Origin: Clostridia bacterium
GTDB taxonomy: Bacteria; Bacillota; Clostridia; Oscillospirales; Acutalibacteraceae
NCBI GenBank assembly: GCA_017623315.1
Contig: JAGAPJ010000042.1
Span: 1 to 49,642 of the forward strand
Length of the DNA: 49,642 nucleotides
Direction: 5' to 3'
Shown here: positions 43,467 to 47,288 of the stretch, one piece after another
How positions within the stretch are numbered: the first letter of the stretch is position 1
Layout of the letters: each line of letters starts with the position of its first letter
Program-made: the position numbers and the translations under genes
The notes under the pieces: generated by a model
Databases searched by the model: none
What the model was told of the DNA's origin: nothing
Seen by the model: the letters and a program-made list of their open reading frames with translations, nothing else

Positions 43467-43481
43467 ACGGAGTTGAAAAAA

Positions 43482-46400
43482 TTGGCTACCCCATTGTTTT
43501 GCGAAATATTCGGTGATTTTTTAAGCGCAGATTTACGCGAAAAGGTAAACGGCGCAATTCTTAAAAAATGTAATTTAGATACCGAAAACCGCACCCTTTT
43601 GGCAGGGCTTTATTGTGATACATATATTTCGCACGGTGTGTTAGCCGAACTTACAAATTCCATTGAAGCACTTTTAAAGCTTGAAAAGTGTAGTATTACT
43701 GCCGAATTTTCACCCTCAGCCTTTGGTATAAGTGTGTGTGAGGATTTGGTGAACGAAATCCGTCAGCACAACGCCCTTTTAAACGGTTATTTTAACGGGG
43801 CAGAATATGCTTTAGACGGTGATACCCTTACAATTAATTTAAAGCACGGCGGTTATAAAAAAATTGTTGCAACCAAGTTTGAAGAACAGTTTATCCGCCT
43901 TGTAAACGACCGCTTTGGCAGGGAATGTGTGCTTTGCTTTGACGGTCAGCTTGACGACGTTAAAATTGAAATGCCCGAGGTTACCTATCAACCGCCTCAG
44001 CCTAAAGCTGAAAAGAAGGTAGAGGAAAAACCGCAAATTAAGTTTGAAGAGCGACGTGAAAAGCCCGAAAACGGCGTAGTTTACCTTGATAACCCACAAC
44101 TGTTTTACGGCAGAAGAATTGACAATAACGTAAAACCGATGATTGATATTACACCTGATGAGGTCTTTGTTTCATGTTGGGGTGAGGTGTTTGGTTATGA
44201 AACACGCAAAATCAACACCAAACGTGGCGAGGCAGTTATTGTTAATTTCTCTGTTTCGGACTATACAAACTCAATTAGCGCATCACTTTTTATGGACCCC
44301 AAGAAAATGGGGGATATTTCAAACCTTAAAAACGGAAATTTTGTTTTAATTAACGGTAATTACGAATTCGACAATTATAAAAAAGAACATATTATAAAGC
44401 CCACCGCAATTGCACTTTTACAGCCCTATTTTGAGATGGACGAATATGAGGGCGAAAAGCGAATTGAGCTTCATTGCCACACCAATATGTCGGACAAGGA
44501 CGCTGTTTGCCCCGCCGAAGACCTTATTAATCAGGCTTATAAGTGGGGCCACAAGGCAATTGCCATTACAGACCACGGTGTTGTACAGGCTTATCCTGCG
44601 GCTGCAGGTGCGGTTAAGGGTATCCGCAAAAAAGGCGGCGACTTTAAGGTTATTTACGGTGTTGAAGGTTATTTTGTTGATGACATCAACAATGATATTA
44701 CAAACCTTGCCCCCAAGCAAATTAAGCGTTACCACCAAATTATTTTGGTTAAAAATGCAGTTGGTCTTAAAAACCTTTATAAGCTTGTTTCCGATGCACA
44801 TATTAATAACTTTAAGGGTAGACCCTTAACTTTGCGCAGTAAGCTAGACGAATTGCGCGAGGGCTTAATTGTCGGCTCGGCCTGTGAGGCGGGCGAGCTT
44901 TTCCAAGCGGTATTCCGTGGCGAGCCACATGAGGAACTTTTGCGAATTGCAAGCTATTACGATTATCTTGAAATTCAGCCCCTTGGCAATAACGACTTTA
45001 TGGTTAGAAAATCGACCGAGCCTGACGAAAAGAACAAAAAGGGCGAGGTTATTCCTAATCCGTACCGTCACGTGACAAGTGTGGAAATGCTTAAGGCGTA
45101 TAACCGCAAAATTGTTGAAATTGCGGACGAGCTAGGAAAACCCGTTGTTGCAACGGGTGACGTGCACTTCCTAAGAAAAAGTGATGAAATTATCCGTAAA
45201 ATTTTACTTGCGGGTCAAAATTATGACGACTTTGACCATCAAGCACCCCTATATCTTAAAACCACACAGGAAATGCTTGACGATTTCAGCTATTTTGGCG
45301 ACCGTGCAAAAGAGTTTGTTATTGATAATCCTGCAAAAATTGCCGATATGATAAGCGGTGATATTATCCCTGTACCTGAAGAAAGTCATCCACCTGTTAT
45401 TGAAGGGTCGGATGATATGCTTCGTGACATTTGTTGGGCTAACGCCCGTAAAAAATACGGCGAAAACGTGCCTGAGGTTGTGTCAAAGCGTCTTGAAAAA
45501 GAGCTCAATGCAATTATTTCTAACGGCTTCTCTATAATGTATATTTCGGCGCAAAAGCTCGTGGCGTTCAGCGAAGAAAACGGCTATCTTGTTGGCTCGC
45601 GTGGTTCGGTTGGCTCATCCTTTGTTGCTACAATGGCGGGTATATCCGAGGTTAATCCCTTGCCGCCCCACTATGTTTGTCCCGAATGTCAGTACAGCGA
45701 ATTTTTCTTAAAGGGCGAGGTAGGCTCGGGTTTTGACCTTCCTGAAAAGAAATGCCCTCACTGTGATAAAATGCTGGTTCGTGACGGCCACGACATACCA
45801 TTTGAAACCTTCTTGGGCTTTAAGGGTGACAAGGTGCCTGATATCGACCTAAACTTTTCGGACGAATTCCAAACCGAAGTACAGCGTTATACCGAAGAGC
45901 TTTTTGGTAGCGAAAACGTGTTTAAAGCGGGTACAATTTCGACCATTGCTGAAAAAACCGCCTTTGGTTTTGCTCGCGCGTATGCTGAAAAGAAGGGTAT
46001 AACACTTTCTAATGCCGAGCTTGACCGTTTGGCAAAGAAGCTTGAAAAAAGCAAAATTAAGGCGACGACAGGTCAGCACCCCGCGGGCATGATTGTTGTG
46101 CCAAGAAACGAAACAATTTACGACTTTTGCCCCATTCAGCATCCCGCAAATAAGCCTGAATCGGGTGTTACTACCACACACTTTGACTTTCATTCAATTC
46201 ACGATACAATTTTAAAGCTTGACGAGCTAGGACATGTTGTTCCTACTACATATAAATATTTAGAGGAATACACAGGCATTTCGGTAAGCGATATTTCAAT
46301 GAGTGATCCGAAGGTTTACAGTCTTTTCACCTCAACCGAGGCACTTGGCGTTACACCGGAGGATATTGAATCTGAAACAGGTACTTACTGTATACCAGAA

Positions 46401-47288
46401 TTTGGTACAGCCTTTGTTCGTGGCATGCTTGTAGACTGTAAACCCAAAAACTTTGCCGACCTATTACAAATTTCGGGTCTTTCGCACGGTACGGGCGTTT
46501 ACCTTGGCAATGCTAAGGATTTAATTGACAACGGCACCTGCACCATATCGGAGGTTATTGGTACCCGTGACAATATTATGGTGTACTTAATCCATCAGGG
46601 TATGGAGGAAGGCCGTGCGTTTAAGATAACCGAAACGGTACGTAAGGGCCTTGTTTCAAAGGGCAAGGTGCCCAAAGAGGTTTGGGACGAAATGGCTGAG
46701 GATATGCGTAAGGTCAACGTGCCTGAATGGTATATCGATTCCTGCCATAAAATCGAGTATATGTTCCCTAAAGCACACGCGGCGGCTTACGTTATTGGTG
46801 CTCTCAGGCTTGCGTGGTATAAGGTTTACCGCCCGCTTGAATTTTACTGCGCCTATTTTACTGCACGTCCCGAAGATGTAGACGTGCCCATACTTATGGG
46901 CGGCAAGGAAGCGGTACGTCGTTACCTTCGTGATATTAAGGCAAAAGGTAAGGACGCAACCCAAAAGGAATTGGACGTATACGAAAATATGCTTATATTT
47001 AATGAGTTTTTTTCACGCGGACTTGAAATTTTACCGATTGATATTAATAAATCCCATGCTATGAAATATCTACCCGAGGACGGTAAAATGCGTTTGCCCT
47101 TTGGTGCGCTTTCGGGTGTCGGCGAAAAGGCGGCTTATTCAATTTACGAAGCGGCACAGGCAGGAAACTATGTTTCAAAGGAAGATTTCCAGCTTGAAGC
47201 AGGTGTTTCGAAAACTATTATTCAAAACCTTAGTGACCTTGGTGCTTTCAGTGATTTACCTGAAACCAATCAAATGTCCATGTTTTAA
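43482..47288 (+). CDS. polC: PolC-type DNA polymerase III alpha subunit lacking the exonuclease insertion
   Basis: 1268 residues, shorter than the usual 1430-1460. Order: N-terminal PolC domain (about 1-180), OB fold (about 225-315), PHP domain (about 325-640), palm/fingers and C-terminal region. PHP metal residues look intact (HCHTNMSDKDAV at H331, ITDHGVVQ, YGVEGYF at E395, TGDVHFL). The zinc site CPEC/CPHC (C733 to about C764) and the catalytic PDIDLNFS (D787, D789) are present. In typical PolC the DEDD proofreading domain (motif FDxETTG) is inserted in PHP after the YGVE strand. Here only 22 residues separate E395 from H418 (YHQIILVKNAVGLKNLY), so that domain is absent, and there is no frameshift. 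TTG at 43482 is the start, with ACGGAG 9 bp upstream. Confidence 0.95.
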   Translation: MATPLFCEIFGDFLSADLREKVNGAILKKCNLDTENRTLLAGLYCDTYISHGVLAELTNSIEALLKLEKCSITAEFSPSAFGISVCEDLVNEIRQHNALLNGYFNGAEYALDGDTLTINLKHGGYKKIVATKFEEQFIRLVNDRFGRECVLCFDGQLDDVKIEMPEVTYQPPQPKAEKKVEEKPQIKFEERREKPENGVVYLDNPQLFYGRRIDNNVKPMIDITPDEVFVSCWGEVFGYETRKINTKRGEAVIVNFSVSDYTNSISASLFMDPKKMGDISNLKNGNFVLINGNYEFDNYKKEHIIKPTAIALLQPYFEMDEYEGEKRIELHCHTNMSDKDAVCPAEDLINQAYKWGHKAIAITDHGVVQAYPAAAGAVKGIRKKGGDFKVIYGVEGYFVDDINNDITNLAPKQIKRYHQIILVKNAVGLKNLYKLVSDAHINNFKGRPLTLRSKLDELREGLIVGSACEAGELFQAVFRGEPHEELLRIASYYDYLEIQPLGNNDFMVRKSTEPDEKNKKGEVIPNPYRHVTSVEMLKAYNRKIVEIADELGKPVVATGDVHFLRKSDEIIRKILLAGQNYDDFDHQAPLYLKTTQEMLDDFSYFGDRAKEFVIDNPAKIADMISGDIIPVPEESHPPVIEGSDDMLRDICWANARKKYGENVPEVVSKRLEKELNAIISNGFSIMYISAQKLVAFSEENGYLVGSRGSVGSSFVATMAGISEVNPLPPHYVCPECQYSEFFLKGEVGSGFDLPEKKCPHCDKMLVRDGHDIPFETFLGFKGDKVPDIDLNFSDEFQTEVQRYTEELFGSENVFKAGTISTIAEKTAFGFARAYAEKKGITLSNAELDRLAKKLEKSKIKATTGQHPAGMIVVPRNETIYDFCPIQHPANKPESGVTTTHFDFHSIHDTILKLDELGHVVPTTYKYLEEYTGISVSDISMSDPKVYSLFTSTEALGVTPEDIESETGTYCIPEFGTAFVRGMLVDCKPKNFADLLQISGLSHGTGVYLGNAKDLIDNGTCTISEVIGTRDNIMVYLIHQGMEEGRAFKITETVRKGLVSKGKVPKEVWDEMAEDMRKVNVPEWYIDSCHKIEYMFPKAHAAAYVIGALRLAWYKVYRPLEFYCAYFTARPEDVDVPILMGGKEAVRRYLRDIKAKGKDATQKELDVYENMLIFNEFFSRGLEILPIDINKSHAMKYLPEDGKMRLPFGALSGVGEKAAYSIYEAAQAGNYVSKEDFQLEAGVSKTIIQNLSDLGAFSDLPETNQMSMF

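Follow-up and report, generated by a model that had tools for sequence, protein, structure and literature searches.

A PolC-type DNA polymerase III without the exonuclease domain in an Acutalibacteraceae genus, and its PHP domain as a candidate proofreader

The DNA analysed here is a 49,642-nucleotide stretch from a Clostridia bacterium of the gut (Oscillospirales; Acutalibacteraceae; assembly GCA_017623315.1, contig JAGAPJ010000042.1), referred to below as the window. It carries a gene for PolC, which commonly serves to illustrate a replicase of bacteria that has its own proofreader, and our main finding is that this PolC is devoid of the DEDD exonuclease domain. Judged by its sequence, the protein is a PolC-type DNA polymerase III: an OB domain precedes the PHP domain, followed by the polymerase core with its catalytic aspartates and a helix-hairpin-helix (HhH) region, and the scores exceed the cut-offs of both NCBIfam PolC equivalogs (NF001688, 1380.2 vs 873 bits; TIGR01405, 1256.1 vs 1043.45 bits). 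The features of the gene are listed below. Residue numbers follow the 1271-residue numbering; subtracting 3 gives the 1268-residue one.

43467..43472, + strand: acggag, probable ribosome-binding site, read from the sequence, nine bases before TTG 43482
43482..47288, + strand: polC, open frame of 1268 residues from TTG 43482 (1271 residues if TTG 43473 is used)
44085..44438, + strand: OB domain region, residues 205-322 (model aligned to OB folds and to PolC structures 3f2b and 9qpc)
44454..44666, + strand: PHP part one, residues 328-398, with ligands H334, H336, D343, H368 and E398 (Pfam PHP 332-494; aligned metal positions)
44667..44732, + strand: 22-residue linker in place of a DEDD exonuclease domain of about 200 residues (PolC row alignments; modelled)
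44733..45272, + strand: PHP part two, residues 421-600, with ligands H421, C471, D563 and H565 (Pfam; aligned metal positions; model)
45159..45161, + strand: D563, the eighth PHP ligand out of nine (aligned with 3f2b and 9qpc)
45417..46040, + strand: polymerase domain, Pfam DNA_pol3_alpha 649-856
45840-45848, + strand: aspartates D790 and D792 of PDIDLNFS (aligned catalytic positions)
46269..46712, + strand: polymerase finger, Pfam DNA_pol3_finger 933-1080
47019..47264, + strand: helix-hairpin-helix, Pfam HHH_6 1183-1264
47271..47285, + strand: C-terminal clamp-binding-like pentapeptide QMSMF (sequence; similar ends in relatives)

Only 22 residues separate E398 (44664-44666) from H421 (44733-44735), just as the initial annotation had read them (its E395 and H418). 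Pfam matches PHP, DNA_pol3_alpha, finger and HHH_6 in this protein but not RNase_T, and there is no FDxETTG-like motif. Two further statements of that annotation also stand: the frame is open throughout, with 1268 residues from TTG 43482, and the metal residues of the PHP domain are intact, nine of nine in the alignment and gathered within the PHP fold of the model. The AlphaFold model of residues 205-640 has a mean predicted local distance difference test (pLDDT) score of 92.4, with ten-residue blocks of the linker at 91-97; the modelled PHP fold is complete across the junction, and the model matches PolC and DnaE structures. Over 136 aligned PolC rows, the corresponding gap is bimodal, spanning 10-33 residues in 84 rows and 197-224 in 52, with no intermediates, and an FDxETTG-like motif is found in 50 of the 52 exonuclease-bearing rows vs none of the 84 exonuclease-less ones. 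At the level of aligned sequences, neither chance nor noise in the alignment comes near to explaining this split. Before the alignment, eight rows had been dropped (duplicates L022, L024 and L028; fragments L068, L070, L071, L019 and L029), while other partial PolC rows stayed in; the genus row L005 and the named record L038 are identical and both were counted.

The initial annotation had raised an assembly error as a possible source of the missing segment. An assembly or sequencing error that took out about 570 bp could be imagined, as the window genome is a draft in 141 contigs with a completeness of 87%, and its dnaE is truncated by the end of a contig and shifts frame. However, in the window genus all 17 PolC rows spanning the junction lack the domain (15 from the genus sample, the window genome included, and two from the order sample), and so do six named records of metagenome-assembled genomes, close kin by identity (75-92%) and not by genus label. 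The linkers of all these sequences measure 22 or 24 residues and follow a common pattern. The weight of the relatives is lessened by the identity of L038 and L005, which means that not all are independent; still, because of these 17 rows and six records, we regard such an error as next to impossible. Two genus genomes (G002 and G005) had only PolC pieces, not usable for the junction.

Side observations from the same genus concern incomplete loci. DnaE of the window genome (L168, G000 contig 2) lies at a contig end in two frames of 537 and 562 residues, as against about 1150 residues in relatives; this split is likely a draft error. G013 (95% complete) and G003 (72% complete) have a DnaE match and no PolC match, which may reflect either incompleteness or loss of PolC. 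Elsewhere, the end of G011 contig 29 (L151:1837-3675) has a phage terminase large subunit in frame with a PolC-like exonuclease and PHP segment. It is probably a chimeric assembly, though the frame stays open; the dropped row L071 is the chimeric exonuclease-bearing piece of G011. The dropped row L070 (G025 contig 2, 64500-67500) is a PolC-like frame of 703 residues that G025 has besides its exonuclease-bearing PolC; it deviates at aligned PHP and catalytic positions, and the row may be misaligned.

As for the remaining features of the gene, TTG 43482 is better spaced relative to acggag than TTG 43473 of the open reading frame list, and either may be the start in use. Most full-length relatives have C-terminal ends resembling Q-x-S/T-x-F, and we take the QMSMF end to have a putative clamp-binding role. 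Genes upstream of polC match amino-acid kinase, RRF, prenyltransferase, cytidylyltransferase, DXP reductoisomerase, M50 peptidase and GcpE, and an M23 peptidase gene lies behind it, a gene order that is usual around polC.

The exonuclease-less form is by no means confined to the window genus. It is also present in G155 and G215 of the same family, in family f24, in all 14 sampled genomes of family f2 of the same order (sequences fetched) and in f19/g30, whose sister genera g43 and g78 carry the exonuclease domain. By alignment shape, 21 of the 131 PolC-bearing genomes in the class sample are exonuclease-less (those of the window and G036 included), and 13 further ones were confirmed on fetched sequence. 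Among 61 genomes sampled across the phylum, 46 have a PolC match, and at least 28 of these 46 are exonuclease-less (27 fetched, plus the window genome); G404 appears so by alignment shape only. Going by these sequences, exonuclease-less PolC is common in this phylum sample.

The trees suggest that the trait has changed repeatedly. On a tree of 79 PolC cores, the trait must change 10 times, with 6 of these changes forced by well-supported branches, and on the widest tree, of 103 PolC rows, it must change 15 times, with 10 forced; both trees come from quick searches and are unrooted, with Shimodaira-Hasegawa-like approximate likelihood ratio (SH-aLRT) support only. In a careful tree of 27 rows, the window genus is sister to the exonuclease-bearing G165 (support 100/98), among further exonuclease-bearing family members. 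Since the sister PolC and these family members carry the domain, derived loss in the window genus is the simplest reading of the sequences. A single exonuclease-less clade joining the window genus, G155, G215 and f19/g30 was rejected (approximately unbiased (AU) test, p = 2e-6). One clade for the exonuclease-less members of family f1 alone was not (AU p = 0.124), so that a single loss may underlie the state of both g1 and G155/G215. For the deeper branches of the phylum, the unrooted trees leave undecided whether the direction was gain or loss.

What, if anything, proofreads for a PolC lacking its exonuclease? The explanation we lean towards, by analogy with DnaE polymerases, is that the zinc PHP domain would do so. 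In some DnaE polymerases, PHP acts as a 3'-5' exonuclease that depends on zinc. In the passages of PMC5636811 used here, Asp226 has a role in Mycobacterium tuberculosis DnaE1, where D226N abolishes exonuclease activity, and the loop of PHP that houses the exonuclease in PolC measures 18 residues in Taq and nine in E. coli. From ligand order alone, we infer that D563 is the counterpart of this catalytic Asp226. A frayed primer end would be received by the PHP domain of PolC and proofread there, as in mycobacterial DnaE1. DnaE1 of the same cells, whose PHP site is likewise intact in relatives, would check its own products, leaving the remaining errors to MutS-dependent mismatch repair. All nine PHP ligands are intact in 84 of 84 exonuclease-less rows. 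The polC gene of the window genus is under purifying selection, conservation is strong in both the PolC core and PHP, and within the genus the ratio of nonsynonymous to synonymous substitution rates (dN/dS) of PHP is about that of the core. As to the second polymerase, DnaE frames of 1146-1167 residues with nine PHP ligands are present in all eight genus relatives fetched, and this DnaE would be DnaE1, not DnaE3, going by its intact PHP site alone.

The D563 position also distinguishes the window PolC from canonical ones. The solved PolCs 3f2b (Geobacillus kaustophilus) and 9qpc belong to the class with an exonuclease domain and have N at the eighth PHP ligand, whereas the window PolC lacks the domain and has D there. 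The exonuclease of 3f2b is reportedly missing by construct design. In a figure legend of PMC3919608, the 3f2b structure itself is without exonuclease. M. tuberculosis DnaE1 differs in another way: it is DnaE-type, with OB behind the core and a measured PHP-exonuclease activity, while the window PolC is known from sequence and model and has OB before PHP.

Several observations weigh against proofreading by the PHP domain. The nine ligands are likewise intact in 48 of 52 exonuclease-bearing rows (of the others, three are cut short and one has N at the eighth), and therefore ligand intactness does not track domain loss. Asp at the eighth ligand is no more telling (84/84 exonuclease-less vs 51/52 exonuclease-bearing rows, p = 0.38). 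Median PHP/core dN/dS ratios are 0.99 for 162 exonuclease-less pairs and 0.97 for 38 exonuclease-bearing pairs, and since the two are the same, no selection singles out PHP in exonuclease-less lineages; many dS values are high, so only ratios were used. Amino-acid distance ratios vary by clade, with no consistent pattern. Stronger PHP constraint in exonuclease-less lineages was thus seen neither by dN/dS nor by distance ratios. Nor can the searches for another nuclease be taken as exhaustive: they covered RNase_T and a DnaQ profile only, and given this coverage and the 87% completeness of the window genome, a proofreader of unrecognised kind, for instance with another nuclease fold, is possible. 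The DnaQ profile itself gave weak matches in G347 (E 9e-6, in a 1623-residue frame), G216 and G250 (both E about 0.008), in addition to a 97-residue fragment at a contig end in G009.

Proofreading might instead be supplied in trans, with a separate DEDDh-type exonuclease acting with PolC: a KapD-like protein of about 300 residues here, small stand-alone DnaQs in other exonuclease-less clades. For the window genus, the initial annotation's suggestion of a separate DnaQ was not confirmed, as no dedicated DnaQ was found by an RNase_T scan of 10 genomes or a six-sequence DnaQ profile run on 14. In nine of the 10, RNase_T matches a single protein, encoded by a frame of 297-343 residues, and G011 has its chimeric contig-end piece besides; the profile returned the same RNase_T proteins in 8 of the 14, the G011 piece and the G009 fragment, and no match in 5. 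The RNase_T protein of the window genome is closest to KapD, yet far under the equivalog cut-off (52.9 vs 169 bits). A similar weak match occurs in 8 of 9 exonuclease-bearing family members (six in 304-322-residue frames, two in frames of about 585), and four such proteins placed in the tree cluster with the genus protein, which is therefore no new acquisition.

Other clades look more favourable to a stand-alone enzyme. Non-PolC RNase_T proteins scoring 95-130 bits are present in 10 of 11 scanned exonuclease-less f2 genomes and in 3 of 3 from f19/g30, and the four exonuclease-bearing sisters of f19/g30 all lack this enzyme. Nine f2 enzymes form one clade and the three of f19/g30 another, with that of G166 (f2) grouping elsewhere; two of these proteins that were tested score 98.6 and 94.0 bits against TIGR00573 (dnaq), above its cut-off of 71.5 bits. 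Gene fission, in which the PolC exonuclease moved to its own gene, is not supported in f2 or f19/g30, as this quick tree, of modest deep support, separates the stand-alone enzymes from the PolC exonucleases of the same order or family. More broadly, compensation by stand-alone DnaQ is not significant: small strong RNase_T proteins (90 bits, 350 residues, thresholds set once the tables had been inspected) are present in 26 of 71 exonuclease-less vs 8 of 35 exonuclease-bearing genomes (p = 0.19), with the exonuclease-less state of G225, G227 and G325 taken from alignment shape, not fetched sequence. In 23 of these 71 genomes the scan found no RNase_T match, and among 12 of the 23 searched with the DnaQ profile, nine gave no match and three the weak matches given above. 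Taken together, we consider a partner exonuclease in trans unlikely.

Alternatively, PolC may need no proofreader, either because most replication falls to DnaE1, with PolC in a specialised role, or because mismatch repair handles the errors. In the part of PMC3919608 used here, Timinskas et al. considered the first of these possible for bacteria with PolC and DnaE1. In family f10 of the same order, PolC goes unmatched at E <= 1e-40 in 14 of the 15 genomes sampled, and the match in the other, G109, is a stop-broken fragment; this family seems to have lost PolC and kept DnaE. All 28 genomes tested have a MutS-type frame (PF00488) of about 870-910 residues. On the other hand, the strong conservation of the PolC core and PHP and the retained clamp-like end speak against this reading, and 181 of 197 genomes of the order sample have a PolC match, one of these being a stop-broken fragment. 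We therefore regard a PolC that does without any proofreading as quite improbable, and continue to lean towards the PHP domain.

The form itself, which the initial annotation treated as unusual, turns out to be frequent in the phylum and was reported in 2013. According to the passages of Timinskas et al. used here (PMC3919608), 6% of PolC sequences were exonuclease-less, all but one in Clostridia and Negativicutes, with a share of 16% in the table for bacteria with PolC and DnaE1. Like the window PolC, those proteins have no Exo insertion in PHP; they come from PolC + DnaE1 bacteria, and the window bacterium, with its DnaE in two frames, may be one of these. The window genus is not named in these passages; here the absence is in addition mapped onto trees and compared with the occurrence of stand-alone DnaQ-like proteins. 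Our literature searches recognised no experimentally characterised exonuclease-less PolC. Outright absence of the PolC exonuclease domain is another route, which qualifies a remark in the part of the 2026 survey PMC12926913 used here.

The kind is thus already known and the window genus is a further member of it; what is added is its frequency, its recurrence and the account of DnaQ proteins. Tentatively, and short of an even expectation, we propose that the DEDD exonuclease of PolC may have been discarded repeatedly across the phylum (about 10 changes forced in the widest tree), leaving both replicative polymerases on zinc PHP proofreading alone, with many lineages having no DnaQ-type proofreader and a few having recruited unrelated stand-alone DnaQs. 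Surveys requiring an exonuclease insertion overlook part of the PolC family, as in the 2025 ibezapolstat study, which, in the passage used here, retained only sequences with an RNaseT insertion in PHP (PMC11963600). Exonuclease-less lineages with an intact PHP domain, in some of which no RNase_T-type nuclease was found, represent a natural test of PHP-only proofreading by PolC.
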